Of a stretch of DNA of 34,799 bases, positions 20,608-26,702 are shown in pieces. This DNA comes from Bdellovibrio sp. (GTDB lineage Bacteria > Bdellovibrionota > Bdellovibrionia > Bdellovibrionales > Bdellovibrionaceae): the NCBI GenBank assembly GCA_025359945.1, contig JANYDD010000026.1, positions 1 through 34,799 on the forward strand, written 5' to 3'. A model generated the notes under the pieces. It was not told the origin of the DNA. It worked only from the letters and a program-made list of their open reading frames with translations, and did no database searches. The position numbers and the translations under genes are program-made. The first letter of the stretch is position 1. The number at the start of each line of letters is the position of its first letter.

Positions 20608-21522
20608 ATGCAAATTCAAAAACGACTAGCAGCAATTGATATCGGTAGTAACGCCATTCGCATGGTGATTTCGGACTACACACCCAAAGGTTTTCGTTTT
20701 TTAAAAAAATTTCGCTTTCCCATCCGCTTGGGCGGCGATGTTTTTGAAAAAGGAAAAATTTCCGGAAAGAACATGAAAGAATCAGCACGAACTTTCCGCA
20801 AGTTCAAGGAGTTGACTAGCGAATTCAAGGTCACAGGACTGCGTGCTGTGGGGACCAGCGCGCTTCGAGAAGCCAAAAATCAAAGTTCATTTGTCGAACT
20901 GATTCGAAGAAAAAGCCAAATCAATATCGAAGTGATCGACGGGGTCGAAGAGGCCCGGCTGATTCATTTGGCAGTGAAGAAGGAAATATATCTTGAAAAT
21001 CATATTTGTCTTTTGATTGATGTTGGCGGTGGAAGCGTTGAACTGACCCTCAGTCAAAAAGGGCAAATGATCGGAACGCAAAGTTTTCCCATGGGCACGG
21101 TTAGAATTTTAGAGCGTCTGCGCAAACGCGATTTGGCCGAATCCCAAATGGCCCTTGTGTTGGATGAATTTATGGAGCCCATCAGTCATTTTCTAAAATC
21201 TATTCCCACCGACGGAAAAATTGATTTTGCGGTGGGCACCGGAGGAAACTTAGAGACCTTGGGTAAGCTAAAGCCCGTGCTTTTGCGAAAAGCGTCTAGA
21301 AATTTGCTGACTCTTGCCGAGACCTCGGAAATCGTCGCGCGATTGACGCGAATGACTTACAAAGATCGTGTTGAAAAGTTAAAGCTTCGAACCGATCGGG
21401 CCGACGTGATTGTTCCCGCCGCCCGGTTAATTTATATGATTATGTCGATAGCTTCGATCGATAAGATCTATATTCCAGGAGTAGGTCTAAAAGATGGTTT
21501 GTTGTGGTCAATGCTGACCTAG
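20608..21522 (+). CDS. Exopolyphosphatase / pppGpp phosphatase family (Ppx/GppA)
   Basis: A 304-residue ASKHA-fold phosphatase that removes terminal phosphate from polyphosphate or pppGpp. The hallmark motifs are present: 'AAIDIGSNAIRMVI' (phosphate 1), 'GLRAVGTSALREAKN', 'LLIDVGGGSVELTL' (phosphate 2) and 'AVGTGGNLETL'. It ends after the catalytic domains and lacks the ~200-residue HD-like C-terminus of E. coli Ppx, as in the short actinobacterial-type enzymes. Substrate preference cannot be told from sequence. It is divergent from phoU, so polyphosphate or alarmone turnover lies beside phosphate sensing. Confidence 0.88.
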   Translation: MQIQKRLAAIDIGSNAIRMVISDYTPKGFRFLKKFRFPIRLGGDVFEKGKISGKNMKESARTFRKFKELTSEFKVTGLRAVGTSALREAKNQSSFVELIRRKSQINIEVIDGVEEARLIHLAVKKEIYLENHICLLIDVGGGSVELTLSQKGQMIGTQSFPMGTVRILERLRKRDLAESQMALVLDEFMEPISHFLKSIPTDGKIDFAVGTGGNLETLGKLKPVLLRKASRNLLTLAETSEIVARLTRMTYKDRVEKLKLRTDRADVIVPAARLIYMIMSIASIDKIYIPGVGLKDGLLWSMLT

Positions 21523-21573
21523 AATTAAATGCTTGAGGAAGTTTGTTTTTGTTTGAACCATGGAGAGGGTTTT

Positions 21574-22542
21574 ATGGAAAAAAGTGGGATCGAGCCAGAA
21601 AAAAATGAAGTAGAAAAAAAACTGCAAAAAAAAACAAGGTCCATCTTTGCAGAGCACCTAAAGTCAGCTGATTTGGCGCCGTTTGCAAATTCCGATCAAA
21701 AGAGGCCCACTGGGCTTGGGCCTGCGCAAGCGCGGAAGTTTTTAGCGCAAATGGGATTTCAATTTCCAAAGAAAAATATTTCTTTTCAGATGCTTAAAGG
21801 CGGAGTTGCCAAAACGACCTCGGCATTGAACTTGGGTTTGCGGGCCGCCATGTACGGCGCCAAAGTCTTGTTTATCGATTTAGACCAGCAGGCCAATTTA
21901 AGTTTTGCCTTGGGTGTTGAAGATGAAAACAATCCGGTGTGGGTCGATGTTTTTGAAAAAAAAATCGCCGTCGAACAAGCGATTTTGAAACTCAGTGACC
22001 AGATTGATCTGATCCCGTCCAGTTTGAATAATTCGGTGCTGGATCGTGCGATGTTGAATTCTCAAAGACACTGGATTAAATCGATCGAAATTTCTTTGGC
22101 CCCCATTCAGGCGCGCTACGATTTAGTTATTATGGACACGGCCCCGCACTTGTCAGCTGTGAATTCCGCGGTCAGTTATGCTTCGGACTTGGTTATTTTG
22201 CCGATCAATCCGGATAAATTCTCACTTTCGGGCGCGCGAAAAAACCTGGATGAATTACAAGAAATCAGAAAAGAATTCGCGCGGGATTTTGAAACGAAAA
22301 TTTTGTTTTCAAAATACGATGGCCGAGAAAACGCCAGTCGCGAAATCTTAAGTCAATGCATTGATATTTTTGGCGATCAGTTGCTGAATTCCTATATTCG
22401 GCACTCTGCCGATGTCAAAAACACAATTGCGTCGACAAAAAGTATTTTTTCTCATGCTTCATCCGCAAAAGAAGACTATGATGCTTTGACTTGCGAAATT
22501 TTGGGTTGGACCGACCGAATGGCCGGCCCCACCCCAGCTTAA
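21574..22542 (+). CDS. ParA-family ATPase with N-terminal extension
   Basis: A 322-residue deviant-Walker ATPase of the ParA/Soj/MinD group. The Walker A is 'LKGGVAKTT' (~74-82), with the signature lysine at 75 and Ala where Gly is common. Then come 'VLFIDLDQQANLS' (A'), 'YDLVIMDTAPHLSAVN' (Walker B) and 'LPINPDKFSLSGA'. Residues 1-70 are highly charged, ending in a helix-turn-helix-like 'GPAQARKFLAQMGF', as in ParA proteins that bind DNA or cargo adaptors. The start is ATG at 21574, behind GGAGAGGG. There is no ParB and no parS-like repeat nearby, so it is probably an orphan cargo-positioning ParA. It is followed 18 bases later by an unknown protein and bolA. Confidence 0.85.
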   Translation: MEKSGIEPEKNEVEKKLQKKTRSIFAEHLKSADLAPFANSDQKRPTGLGPAQARKFLAQMGFQFPKKNISFQMLKGGVAKTTSALNLGLRAAMYGAKVLFIDLDQQANLSFALGVEDENNPVWVDVFEKKIAVEQAILKLSDQIDLIPSSLNNSVLDRAMLNSQRHWIKSIEISLAPIQARYDLVIMDTAPHLSAVNSAVSYASDLVILPINPDKFSLSGARKNLDELQEIRKEFARDFETKILFSKYDGRENASREILSQCIDIFGDQLLNSYIRHSADVKNTIASTKSIFSHASSAKEDYDALTCEILGWTDRMAGPTPA

Positions 22543-22560
22543 ACGAAAACAGGAGATCCC

Positions 22561-23085
22561 GTGCCTTCAGTAAAAGATTTCGAGAAAAACAAAAAAACCA
22601 AAACCGCCCCTGTCCATTCACAGCCGCTCAAGGCTGAAAAGAAACGAAGGCCAGGTCGTGATCCCCTAGAAGAATCTGAAACTCAGGCCGAATCAAAAAT
22701 CAAAGTTATGGACGTAGAAAAAGAAAAAGTGACGTCCACAGCACCCAGCGCTAGCAAGGCCCACGAACCATTCACTGCCCAAAACCCTGACCGAAGAAAA
22801 GTGACTTTTCCTGGCAGCGAAAGCATTCGCACTTTGCAGCCACTGCTTTTTGATCTGGCTGAAACTATTTACAATGATTGGTTGGATGAACGTGATTTTT
22901 CGAATTTACCCATTCGCAATTCACAGATAAGAGAAAAAGTGCAATCGGGTTTATTGACAGCAAAAGGAATCGAGAAAAAACTCCTAGAGTCGCCGACGAC
23001 AGAAAAAGTATTAACTCAAGTCTTAACCTACGCATTTAAAGCGCAAGAAACCTATAAGAATTTTGAAAAAAAATGGAAAAAGTAA
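22561..23085 (+). CDS. Unknown protein in ParA operon
   Basis: A 174-residue protein that I do not recognise. Residues 1-~80 are charged and low in hydrophobics, probably disordered. Residues ~88-174 look like a compact helical domain ('IRTLQPLLFDLAETIYNDWL', then 'NSQIREKVQSGLLTAKGIEK', then 'KVLTQVLTYAFKAQETYK') with a lysine-rich end. The start is GTG with AGGAG 6 bases upstream. A disordered basic tail plus a helical domain beside a ParA fits a ParA-stimulating partner or cargo adaptor, but this is inference from position only. The stop overlaps the start of bolA by 13 bases. Confidence 0.65.
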   Translation: MPSVKDFEKNKKTKTAPVHSQPLKAEKKRRPGRDPLEESETQAESKIKVMDVEKEKVTSTAPSASKAHEPFTAQNPDRRKVTFPGSESIRTLQPLLFDLAETIYNDWLDERDFSNLPIRNSQIREKVQSGLLTAKGIEKKLLESPTTEKVLTQVLTYAFKAQETYKNFEKKWKK

Positions 23086-23402
23086 AAGGTCCACTGGAAA
23101 TCGCCATTCAAAATAACATCCGCCAAGGCTTAAACGTGACCGAGCTTCTGCTGGTGAATGAAAGCCACATGCATTCCAGAAACCCAAAAGGTGAATCTCA
23201 CTTTAATTTGCTTGTCGTTAGCCCCGATTTTGAAAATAAAAAACTGGTTGAACGCCATCGCCAAGTGCAGGCGCTGCTAGCTGACCAGCTCGCCAGCGGA
23301 CTGCACGCGGTCACGCTTCGAACGTTGACTCCAGAAGAATGGTCTAAAGACCCTGCAAATTTGCAATCACCAGCGTGTAGCACATCGAAAACAAAAACGT
23401 AA
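23073..23402 (+). CDS. bolA: BolA-family protein
   Basis: A 109-residue BolA protein. The core 'LLLVNESHMH', 'GESHFNLLVVSPDF', 'LVERHRQVQALLADQL' and 'LHAVTLRTLTPEEW' matches E. coli BolA closely, including the C-terminal 'SPAC'. BolA proteins bind monothiol glutaredoxins through a shared [2Fe-2S] cluster and can bind DNA; they affect cell shape and stress response. The invariant His in 'RHRQ' is present. It overlaps the preceding gene and is probably co-translated with it. This places an iron/morphology factor in an operon with a ParA-type positioning ATPase. Confidence 0.88.
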   Translation: MEKVKGPLEIAIQNNIRQGLNVTELLLVNESHMHSRNPKGESHFNLLVVSPDFENKKLVERHRQVQALLADQLASGLHAVTLRTLTPEEWSKDPANLQSPACSTSKTKT

Positions 23403-23416
23403 ATCAGGTTTAAAAA

Positions 23417-23725
23417 TCAGCCCGAAAGATCGCGCAGTTTGCGCTGTACTTCCTTCAGTAATTCCTGATGTTCTGCGCTGGGAGGATGCACTCGGGAAGA
23501 CCTTGTTGAAACAGTTGCTTTGTTGGGGGCAATTGCTTCAGCGCTAGGGGATTCCCAAAGCTTCATTGCTTTTTCCAATTCAGTCGCGGCGTTAATCCAG
23601 GTCGTTTTTGCAATCGGCTTTGTGGTGGGATTTGTGGTGCGCTGTTCAAACGCTGAAAGTGAGTTAGGTTGAATTGGCGTAATGTTTTTTTTATCTTCTT
23701 CCATGGCGGTTCTATCAGTTTTCAA
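23417..23725 (-). CDS. Small hypothetical protein
   Basis: A 102-residue, polar, low-complexity protein without signal or membrane helix. The middle has 'INAATELEKAMKLWESPSAE' and the end a basic helix ('HQELLKEVQRKLRDLSG'). I do not recognise it. The start is TTG with GAAGG very close upstream; an ATG at 23704 is the alternative. It is convergent with bolA, 14 bases apart. It could be non-coding; the support is an open frame and coding-like composition only. Confidence 0.45.
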   Translation of the reverse strand: MKTDRTAMEEDKKNITPIQPNSLSAFEQRTTNPTTKPIAKTTWINAATELEKAMKLWESPSAEAIAPNKATVSTRSSRVHPPSAEHQELLKEVQRKLRDLSG

Positions 23726-23841: not shown

Positions 23842-25518
23842 TTGTCGCAAGAAATAATTTATACCATGAAGGGTGTTTCGAAAGTTTATCCTCCGCAAAA
23901 ATATGTTTTGAAGAACATCTATTTATCTTACTTTTACGGAGCAAAAATTGGAATTTTGGGTCTGAACGGATCGGGAAAATCGACGCTGCTTAAAATCATG
24001 GCGGGTATCGATCAAGATTTTCTTGGAGAAGCTCTGCCGTCAAAAAAAATTCGAATTGGTTTTTTACCGCAAGAACCTCAGCTGGATCCAGAGCTTACCG
24101 TAAAAGAAAATATTTTCGCCGGCATGGGTGAACTCCCCGCTCTGATGAAGGAATTTCAAAAAGTATCAGATCAATTCAACGACCCTGATTTAGACCCAGA
24201 TCTTATGGAAAAGCTGATTGAAAAGCAGGGCCAGCTGCAAGAAAAAATCGAAGCCCTAGACGGTTGGAGTGTCGATCAAAAACTTGAGGTGGCCATGGAC
24301 GCGCTTCGATGTCCCGAAGGCGATTCAAAGGTGTCTCATTTATCGGGTGGTGAAAAAAGACGTGTGGCTTTGTGCAGGCTTTTGCTTTCGCAGCCAGATA
24401 TTTTATTGTTGGACGAGCCCACGAATCACTTGGACGCCGAGAGTGTTTCGTGGCTTGAGCAGTTTTTAGCTAAATTTCCAGGCACCGTGATCGCGGTAAC
24501 CCATGATCGTTATTTTTTAGACAACGTCGCCGGTTGGATATTAGAGCTTGATCGCGGCGAGGGCATTCCGTTCAAGGGCAACTATTCTTCTTGGTTGGAA
24601 CAAAAAGAAAAACGTTCACAAGTCGAACAGCAAAGTATGGATCGCCGCCAAAAAACTCTGCAAAAAGAGCTTGAGTGGATTCGCATGGCTCCAAGGGCCC
24701 GGCACGCTAAATCCAAAGCGCGGATTTCTAACTACGAAAACTTGATCAAAGAACCTACTGCAGAAAAAATGCAGGAACTGAGTCTTTATATTCCACCGGG
24801 GCCAAGGCTTGGTCAGGTGGTGGTCGATTTCGAAGGGGTCACCAAAGGCTTTGAACACAAATTATTATTTGATAATTTGTCGTTCTCGCTGCCCCGGGGA
24901 GCTATTGTGGGCGTGGTCGGACCCAATGGCGTAGGAAAAACCACTTTGTTTAAAATGATTGCCGGTTTAGAAAAACCGGATTCAGGCACTATTCGCCTTG
25001 GCGAAACCCTAAAGTTGGCCTACGTCGACCAAAATCGCGAAAGTTTAAACCCCGACAAAACCGTTTGGGAAGAAATCTCGGGTGGCCACGATTTGATTCA
25101 GCTGGGTTTACGCGAAGTCAATTCTAGAGCCTACGTTTCATGGTTTAATTTTAGCGGAACTGACCAGCAAAAAAAGGTGGGGTCATTGTCGGGCGGAGAA
25201 CGCAATCGGGTTAATTTAGCAAAGGTCTTAAAGACCGGCGCAAACTTACTGCTTTTGGATGAGCCCACCAATGATCTAGACGTCAATACCATGAGGGCGC
25301 TTGAAGACGCATTGTTGGAATTTGGAGGCAGTGCCGTGGTGATTTCTCATGATCGTTGGTTTTTGGATCGCATCTGCACGCATCTGTTGATTTTTGAAGG
25401 CGACAGTAAGGTTGAGTTTTTTAACGGAAACTTCAGCGACTACGAAGAAGATCGCAAAAAACGCCTGGGCGAGGACGCCCTTCGCCCCAAACGCATTCGA
25501 TTTCGAAATATCCAGTAG
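23842..25518 (+). CDS. ettA: ABC-F translation factor EttA
   Basis: A 558-residue ATPase with two ABC domains and no membrane part. It binds the ribosomal E site and gates entry into elongation according to energy state. First domain: Walker A 'GLNGSGKST' (40-48), signature 'LSGGEKRRVALCRLLL', Walker B 'ILLLDEPTNHLD'. The linker includes the arginine-rich 'EWIRMAPRARHAKSKARI' typical of EttA. Second domain: 'GPNGVGKTT', 'LSGGERNRVNLAKVL', 'LLLLDEPTNDLD'. Length equals the E. coli protein (~555). The start is TTG preceded by GGGAGG. It is monocistronic; a GC-rich hairpin follows the stop. Confidence 0.93.
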   Translation: MSQEIIYTMKGVSKVYPPQKYVLKNIYLSYFYGAKIGILGLNGSGKSTLLKIMAGIDQDFLGEALPSKKIRIGFLPQEPQLDPELTVKENIFAGMGELPALMKEFQKVSDQFNDPDLDPDLMEKLIEKQGQLQEKIEALDGWSVDQKLEVAMDALRCPEGDSKVSHLSGGEKRRVALCRLLLSQPDILLLDEPTNHLDAESVSWLEQFLAKFPGTVIAVTHDRYFLDNVAGWILELDRGEGIPFKGNYSSWLEQKEKRSQVEQQSMDRRQKTLQKELEWIRMAPRARHAKSKARISNYENLIKEPTAEKMQELSLYIPPGPRLGQVVVDFEGVTKGFEHKLLFDNLSFSLPRGAIVGVVGPNGVGKTTLFKMIAGLEKPDSGTIRLGETLKLAYVDQNRESLNPDKTVWEEISGGHDLIQLGLREVNSRAYVSWFNFSGTDQQKKVGSLSGGERNRVNLAKVLKTGANLLLLDEPTNDLDVNTMRALEDALLEFGGSAVVISHDRWFLDRICTHLLIFEGDSKVEFFNGNFSDYEEDRKKRLGEDALRPKRIRFRNIQ

Positions 25519-25609: not shown

Positions 25610-26122
25610 CTATTTCGAAATTGAATTTAAAAACTTTTTTAAAATGGAATAGTTTTTCCGTAAGGTCTGGAAGGCTTCGGAAGTTCCGCCGTAGTCTGGA
25701 TGCTTCTGAAAACAAAGTTTTCTAAATTTTCGTCGCAGCTCTTCCAGAGTGAAAGCTGGGGTCAGCGAAAGTCCTTGCTCTGAAAAATACTCTGAAGCTT
25801 TCAACTGCTCAACCTGAAGTTTATGGGGAACACAGGCTTTATCATCAAACTCCATTGATCTGCCGAAGGTATTTTCGCCTTCGATCGATTTGGGGTTTTG
25901 AGGTTTTCCTTCAAATCCCGAAAACGCATTGCTTTGGTTCTTTTTTTGCGGACGGGGGTAAGCATCTTGAGTTTTCTTTTTCGTATTGGCTTTTAGAAGT
26001 TCAAAGTCGAAGCCAAAAAATAAATTTTCTGCAGCTGAATTGGTAAAGAAACTGTCGCTCGGGATGGCACTCAAGACCTGCTGTTCGGATAACTTTTCGG
26101 CCAGAATATCTGCGAATTTCAT
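25610..26122 (-). CDS. J-domain protein with C-terminal J domain
   Basis: A 170-residue protein. The last ~55 residues form a J domain: helix II 'TLEELRRKFRKLCFQ', then the invariant HPD (141-143) and 'EAFQTLRKNYSILKKFL' as helix III. J domains stimulate ATP hydrolysis by Hsp70/DnaK. The N-terminal ~110 residues are polar and probably disordered, with no zinc finger or substrate domain, so this is a class C (DjlA/specialised) co-chaperone and not DnaJ. Its client is unknown. The ATG has little upstream ribosome-site support. Convergent with ettA. Confidence 0.8.
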   Translation of the reverse strand: MKFADILAEKLSEQQVLSAIPSDSFFTNSAAENLFFGFDFELLKANTKKKTQDAYPRPQKKNQSNAFSGFEGKPQNPKSIEGENTFGRSMEFDDKACVPHKLQVEQLKASEYFSEQGLSLTPAFTLEELRRKFRKLCFQKHPDYGGTSEAFQTLRKNYSILKKFLNSISK

Positions 26123-26280
26123 ACCTTCAGATCGGTCGTGAACTTAAGTTTCTCGAGGGGAAATCACCAAAAACTAGTCTTTACCCACCTACTTTCAGAG
26201 GAGAAAATGCCTTTTAAGACCGTTTTTCAGAGGGAAAAGGGGCTTTTTTACGAAAAAACCGAGCTCTTTGCAATTTTTTT

Positions 26281-26309
26281 TTGGACAAACGGCTAGAAGT
26301 GTTTACACT
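26281..26309 (+). promoter_or_regulatory. Sigma70-type promoter for the SWIB gene
   Basis: TTGGAC (26281-26286), a 17-base spacer, and TACACT (26304-26309), about 45 bases before the SWIB start, preceded by A/T-rich DNA. Good consensus match by eye. Confidence 0.6.
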
Positions 26310-26354
26310 AATCACGTAGAGAGACAACAAACCAACACCATTCGGAGGAAAGAA

Positions 26355-26702
26355 ATGGCGAAAAAAGCGACAAAGAAAGCAGCAAGCAAAAAAACTTCTG
26401 CAAAAAAAGCGGCTCCAAAAAAGGCTTCTGTAAAGAAAGCTACTGGCGCAAAACGAAAACCGAATCCGGCTTTCATGAGACCTTTAACTCCTAGTTCGAC
26501 ATTAGCTGCCATCGTGGGTGCTGCAGCATTGCCAAGAACTCAGGTTGTTAAAAAACTTTGGGATTATATCAAGAAGAACAAACTTCAAGATGCTGCAAAC
26601 CGAAGAAACATCAATGCTGATGACAAATTGAAACCAATCTTTGGAAAAGCCACTGTTTCAATGTTTGAAATGACCAAATTGGTTAGCAAACATTTGAAAT
26701 AG
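26355..26702 (+). CDS. SWIB-domain protein with histone-H1-like lysine tail
   Basis: A 115-residue protein. Residues 2-~38 are Lys/Ala repeats (e.g. KKATKKAASKKTSAKKAAPK), resembling bacterial histone-H1-like tails that bind DNA nonspecifically. Residues ~42-115 are a SWIB/MDM2 domain: 'RPLTPSSTLAAIVGAAALPRTQVVKKLWDYIKKNKLQD' then 'ADDKLKPIFGK'. SWIB proteins are common in Chlamydia, Bdellovibrio relatives and some others and are thought to be chromatin-associated. The start is ATG with GGAGGAAAGAA upstream. It has its own promoter and a strong terminator, so it is a monocistronic and probably abundant transcript. Confidence 0.88.
   Translation: MAKKATKKAASKKTSAKKAAPKKASVKKATGAKRKPNPAFMRPLTPSSTLAAIVGAAALPRTQVVKKLWDYIKKNKLQDAANRRNINADDKLKPIFGKATVSMFEMTKLVSKHLK

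Follow-up and report, generated by a model that had tools for sequence, protein, structure and literature searches.

Genetic organization of the locus

The window analysed here (i.e., the whole stretch of 34,799 nucleotides of contig JANYDD010000026.1) belongs to a 2.74 Mb draft genome and carries three successive genes on its forward strand, encoding a ParA-type ATPase, a small protein referred to here as Mid, and a BolA-family protein, with an ABC-F ATPase gene (referred to as ettA) further downstream (Table 1). The longest parA open reading frame begins at an in-frame ATG at position 21529, but the start listed in Table 1, which follows GGAGAGGG, is the likelier one. The stop codon of parA and the start codon of mid are separated by 18 nt and share the same frame by chance, while bolA overlaps mid by 13 nt, so that the overlapping frames ascribed to the trio in a preliminary description are found between mid and bolA and not between parA and mid. 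A scan for promoters and terminators yielded no more matches than were obtained in shuffled sequence.

Table 1. Features of the parA-mid-bolA locus (positions in the window)
Feature	Position	Strand	Support or remark
ParA/MinD-family ATPase, orthologue of B. bacteriovorus ParA1 (Bd1326)	21574..22542	+	AAA_31, 121 bits
Mid, 174 aa, candidate ParA adaptor, Bd1327 orthologue, GTG start	22561..23085	+	
First ParA-linked Mid motif, MPSVKDFEKNKK, residues 1-12	22561..22596	+	36/39 genomes with ParA vs. 0/20 without
Second ParA-linked Mid motif, RRP, residues 29-31	22645..22653	+	39/39 genomes with ParA vs. 0/20 without
Mid residues 86-174, helical body and putative domain for cargo binding	22816..23082	+	pLDDT about 90
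BolA-family protein, neighbour by ancestral synteny	23073..23402	+	PF01722, 85 bits
ABC-F ATPase (EttA-like), ancestral bolA neighbour	23842..25518	+	name EttA-like from sequence

Among the genomes compared, G004, which we take to be Bdellovibrio bacteriovorus HD100, carries the orthologous locus with the same three genes in the same order. In HD100 this operon, parA1-bd1327-bolA (bd1326–bd1328), was reported to yield a joint transcript at 3 h, and parA1 was most highly expressed at 3–4 h (Milner et al. 2020, PMC7186360). Bd1327 showed no homology to known proteins, and a parA1 deletion mutant was viable, neither deletion nor tagging of ParA1 leading to a measurable phenotype (PMC7186360). The operon is in that sense not the undescribed one it had been taken for, and what is new here is the evidence on how the locus is built.

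Upstream of parA lies a gene for a Ppx/GppA-type phosphatase (positions 20608–21522, forward strand), at a position that in several relatives is occupied by a gene for a UvrD-like helicase; it reflects a local rearrangement in the lineage of the window. Because among the loci compared a Ppx gene adjoins parA only in the window's own genome, a link to polyphosphate was dropped. Downstream, a 102-aa ORF convergent with bolA (23417–23725, reverse strand) matched no family, but does match short ORFs in the corresponding position of genomes G026 and G058. Beyond ettA are a reverse-strand gene (25610–26122) for a 170-aa protein with a long N-terminal extension and a weak DnaJ-like stretch at its C-terminus (25.2 bits, below the cut-off of 27.8), relatives of which occur near bolA-ettA in several Bdellovibrionaceae, and a forward-strand gene (26268–26702) in which a lysine-rich, histone-H1-like tail is fused to a SWIB/MDM2 domain (PF02201, 101 bits).

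A ParA/MinD-type ATPase without ParB or parS nearby

The first protein of the trio is a ParA/MinD-type ATPase by its profile, its deviant Walker A motif and its switch aspartates. Besides the AAA_31 match, the Pfam family CbiA was matched with 51 bits. The deviant Walker A motif KGGVAKT and the motifs DLDQQAN and DTAP are invariant or nearly so among 27 orthologues, in which D102/D104 and D188 are conserved as well. Moreover, the structure model of the protein matches Soj/ParA structures (TM-score by target up to 0.88), and its named relatives are from Bdellovibrionaceae.

As had been anticipated, this ParA stands apart from any ParB or parS. No parS site was found in the window within three mismatches, and the only ParB (ParB_N) of the genome is encoded on another contig (C103), where its gene adjoins that of another ParA; the locus thus has neither the ParB CTPase gene nor the parS site of a ParABS system. 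Likewise, no convincing array of iteron-like repeats or palindromes was seen beside the operon, either in the window or at the HD100 locus, and Mid shows no helix-turn-helix above the cut-off, so that the locus lacks both the iterons and the recognizable DNA-binding partner body of a plasmid partition module.

Mid combines a disordered basic tail with a helical body

The second protein had been characterized as disordered and helical and as a member of no known family, and both points hold. Searches of Mid against Pfam, NCBIfam and PHROGs gave no family above the cut-off, a family search with 55 orthologues gave no convincing one, no relative was found among PDB sequences, and a fold search of the Mid body against the PDB returned no match with E < 1. 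A resemblance to the C-terminus of PopZ, suspected by eye, found no profile match. In the structure model, residues 1–80 are disordered (pLDDT 43–54 over residues 1–70) and residues 86–173 are helical, with four helices predicted at residues 86–92, 94–108, 121–143 and 145–173. This body is conserved in genomes with and without ParA; in Bd1327 it corresponds to about residues 110–202.

In partners of ParA/MinD ATPases, a charged and disordered N-terminus contacts the ATPase while the remainder of the protein serves the cargo (PMC10241942, PMC12204374, PMC12462528). The N-terminus of Mid is of that kind, being disordered and carrying a net charge of +7 over residues 1–35 in the window. It starts with MPxIKxF/Y..KKK and further on contains RRP, which is invariant in alignment A4. 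A single-chain model of ParA and Mid (read through the in-frame TAA) displayed a good ParA fold and no usable docking.

ParA is paired with Mid in the Bdellovibrionaceae

Mid was found in 59 of 66 Bdellovibrionaceae genomes and in none of the genomes from other families of the same class, and a profile search across 369 genomes of the phylum yielded one further, stand-alone relative of the Mid body. The latter is encoded in a genome from a distant family of the phylum (G365, L290:4209–4682, forward strand), with no adjoining ParA or BolA gene. A ParA of the window type is present in 40 of the 66 genomes, 39 of which have a complete locus, and in all 39 the mid gene adjoins parA, at the place expected for an adaptor (gap of –47 to +135 nt). 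This arrangement is far beyond chance, and ParA and Mid belong together.

The intact trio occurs in 34 of the 66 genomes, mid and bolA without parA in 20, parA and mid without an adjacent bolA in five, and bolA alone in three, while four genomes were not assigned to any class. Separation of the three genes in most relatives had been named beforehand as an outcome that would count against a joint system; by these figures, it is seen only in part. Losses of ParA affect genera g9, g12 and g17 as well as five g4 genomes, and G044, which we take to be Pseudobdellovibrio exovorus, is one of the genomes without this ParA. With the ABC-F (EttA-like) protein as marker for the species tree, parsimony counts five changes, or four if g9 and g17, the order of which is unsettled, share one loss.

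The N-terminal motifs of Mid are lost together with ParA

Scored as RR[PL] within the first 75 residues and as MPx[ITVFS][KRS], the two motifs of the Mid tail follow the presence of ParA closely (Table 1), the latter being absent from only three ParA-bearing genomes (G031, G065 and G066); both patterns were picked post hoc, with the alignment already viewed. Inside genus g4, both motifs are found in 18 of 18 Mids with ParA and in none of the five without. A Pagel-type two-trait Markov test on the ABC-F tree supported correlated evolution with ParA for RRP (LR 38.7, p = 8 × 10−8) as well as for MPxIK (LR 20.4 to 28.4, p = 4 × 10−4 to 1 × 10−5), figures that draw on only four to five independent losses of ParA, while a sign test on independent pairs had too few pairs and hence low power.

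Each loss of ParA could have taken the 5′ end of mid with it in one deletion. However, decay of the tail is favored over such a deletion, because genome G005, which has lost ParA, keeps a decayed Mid tail (MPHVTTHYENNKKR) that is devoid of RRP.

Several partners of related ParAs share the opening of Mid but not its body

Relatives of the window ParA outside the Bdellovibrionaceae were found on plasmids, on IMG/VR contigs and in other genomes, with a partner gene situated directly downstream. The partner at L252, where the ParA is 56% identical to that of the window, opens with MPDINEFLK..QRRPGR, and Mid-like openings were also seen at L244 (MPSFDEF), L280 (MPQITDY), L284 (MPLIADL) and L241 (MPNIDDY). 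When 16 partners were scored with a matrix derived from Mid tails, five reached the best 0.4% of a background of 756 N-termini and 11 did not, some of the latter being without the motif (L283 and L286). Alignment of Mid with the partner profiles by hhalign gave a sole match, located on the Mid N-terminus, with a probability of 3.6%. Outside this scoring set, a 98-aa partner (L234:4862–5155, forward strand) combines MPKVSDF..RRRRPGRE with a short, amphipathic-looking C-terminus, and the adjoining ParA is 54% identical to that of the window.

Beyond their openings, most partners have a winged-helix-like stretch (LVGLQ..KGRGGW) in their bodies, as judged from weak Pfam matches and the look of the sequence. 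On inspection, the 127-aa partner at L241 (4852–5235, forward strand; MPNIDDY..KRRVW) ends in a hydrophobic hairpin, possibly pointing to a membrane cargo or anchor. A tree of ParA proteins unites those of the trio in one clade (support 99/97), and the ParAs with winged-helix-like, short or membrane-type partners branch outside of it (L252 and L234, then L241, L127 and a plasmid ParA). The simplest history would be that of a mobile-element partition pair whose partner switched its body at the base of the Bdellovibrionaceae.

Two further loci were noted in this survey. In addition to its chromosomal ParA-Mid pair at another position, genome G058 harbors a second ParA of the same lineage with a plasmid-type partner (L127:2305–4910, forward strand; MPSLDELL.., 539 aa), and no MPxIK tail was seen in the ORFs adjoining ParA2 of HD100 (L134).

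The plasmid and viral contigs on which close ParA relatives reside, the DNA-binding-like partners encoded there, and the small, helical and terminally basic body of Mid are all compatible with a locus that is still engaged in DNA partition, in which the Mid body would bind a chromosomal site and ParA-Mid would segregate or tether that site. This alternative is nevertheless unlikely, given that no helix-turn-helix family was found in Mid, that parS and iteron-like arrays are missing beside the operon (the arrays at the HD100 locus as well), and that a canonical ParAB pair is encoded elsewhere in the genome.

BolA belongs to an older neighborhood

The third protein of the trio is a BolA-family member by PF01722 (84.9 bits), while its score against the NCBIfam BolA equivalog (66.9 bits) is below the cut-off of 137. 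In the other families of the class, without ParA and Mid, bolA of this long type has an ABC-F gene (ettA) nearby in 15 of the 20 loci and a gene for a UvrD-like helicase (Pfam UvrD) nearby in seven of them. Since bolA and ettA are thus found near each other where ParA and Mid are missing, their association is ancestral and ParA-Mid entered an existing neighborhood.

The preliminary description had envisaged a positioning or growth-form system made of the trio; as a single three-part system, ParA-Mid would position BolA or a BolA complex. In its favor, the two genes mid and bolA are direct neighbors in 54 of the 59 genomes with Mid (gaps of –51 to +19 nt), mid remains beside bolA in all 20 genomes without ParA, and HD100 transcribes the whole trio jointly (PMC7186360). 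The persistence in those 20 genomes is no strong signal, however, because 34 of the 39 ParA-bearing genomes have mid beside bolA as well. Moreover, bolA-ettA predates the insertion of ParA-Mid, BolA is retained across the whole class in the absence of ParA and Mid, and of the five genomes that keep ParA-Mid without an adjacent bolA, four encode a BolA of the other type alone and the fifth has its BolA elsewhere. In the window's genome, a CGFS monothiol-glutaredoxin-like ORF (assigned from sequence) adjoins the gene for a second BolA (L288, 4005–4644) instead of that of the trio, which accordingly does not form a BolA-glutaredoxin pair. Neither a working role for BolA nor the three-part system is supported by these data; positioning of BolA by ParA-Mid is improbable, and BolA is probably outside the ParA-Mid machine.

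A putative positioning system with an exchanged adaptor body

The pairing of the genes, the joint loss of the motifs and ParA, the likeness of related partners in their opening but not in their body, and the branching order of the ParAs together make Mid most likely an adaptor of ParA, one that appears to have kept the docking tail of plasmid partners and gained a helical body specific to the Bdellovibrionaceae. The dedicated adaptor that had been suspected thereby gains evolutionary support, from N-terminal motifs that track ParA and resemble those of partners of related plasmid ParAs. ParA and Mid probably constitute a two-component positioning system that descends from the partition genes of some mobile element, such as a plasmid, with the body of Mid exchanged.

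In such a system, ParA would be present on the nucleoid as an ATP-bound dimer, presumably in a gradient. Through its basic, disordered tail (MPxIKxF..KKK and RRP), Mid would contact this dimer and stimulate the ATPase activity of ParA, while the helical C-terminal body would bind a cargo, which would in this way be spaced out or segregated over the nucleoid. The body of the ancestral partner was probably a winged-helix-like DNA-binding domain that held the plasmid, and would have been swapped for the four-helix body at the base of the Bdellovibrionaceae, with the ParA-Mid pair landing upstream of the existing bolA-ettA cluster. With its body replaced in this way, Mid would probably no longer have a plasmid or the ancestral DNA site as cargo. 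More tentatively, predatory bacteria may have co-opted a plasmid partition ATPase by swapping the cargo domain of its adaptor, and a single ParA lineage may have come to work with adaptors alike in their docking tail and different in their bodies (winged-helix-like, short amphipathic, membrane-hairpin or four-helix), with an as yet unseen protein cargo in the Bdellovibrionaceae and a second, ParA-independent job of the adaptor that would persist after ParA loss.

ParAs of type Ia carry an N-terminal helix-turn-helix part and autoregulate. That the three genes would be unrelated and merely co-oriented in one transcript, with ParA acting alone (e.g., as a regulator via an N-terminal helix-turn-helix-like part), could be read from the HTH_17-like N-terminal part (below the cut-off) of the related ParAs at L127 and L284 and from the parA1 deletion without phenotype (PMC7186360), but is very unlikely, as it explains neither the loss of the Mid motifs together with ParA nor the similar motifs in partners of related ParAs.

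Cargo switching by ParA-type motors has so far mostly been inferred from unrelated adaptors, whereas the loci compared here offer one ParA lineage that can be followed across partners with a common docking tail and different bodies, and in which natural losses of the motor reveal the ParA-linked part of the adaptor. They also make the phenotype-less orphan ParA of B. bacteriovorus, a model predator, amenable to testing, with K5, R29 and R30 of Mid (window numbering) as residues to mutate and with bolA weakened as a lead.

Comparison with known systems

Chromosomal ParABS systems have the ATPase fold and the deviant Walker A motif in common with the window ParA, but the window locus has no ParB or parS near it and a separate canonical parAB is present in the same genome. 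The report on the HD100 operon (PMC7186360) describes these genes but covers neither the Mid motifs nor the relatives on plasmids, and neither the exchange of the body nor the older bolA-ettA setting. Closer in design is the McdAB system for carboxysome positioning (PMC12204374, PMC6328274), which resembles the ParA-Mid pair in consisting of a ParA-type ATPase and a small adaptor with a basic N-terminus, without parS; Mid differs in that family libraries gave no McdB-like match, and there is no carboxysome. Finally, the partition modules with a winged-helix-like partner on plasmids of Piscirickettsia, Megaera and Legionella and on IMG/VR contigs have a ParA homologous to that of the window (33–39% identity for the plasmids and 56% for L252), a partner gene directly downstream and, in several cases, the N-terminal motif. 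Unlike the plasmid partners, with their C-terminal DNA-binding-like part, Mid carries a four-helix body and is encoded on the chromosome, adjoining bolA-ettA.
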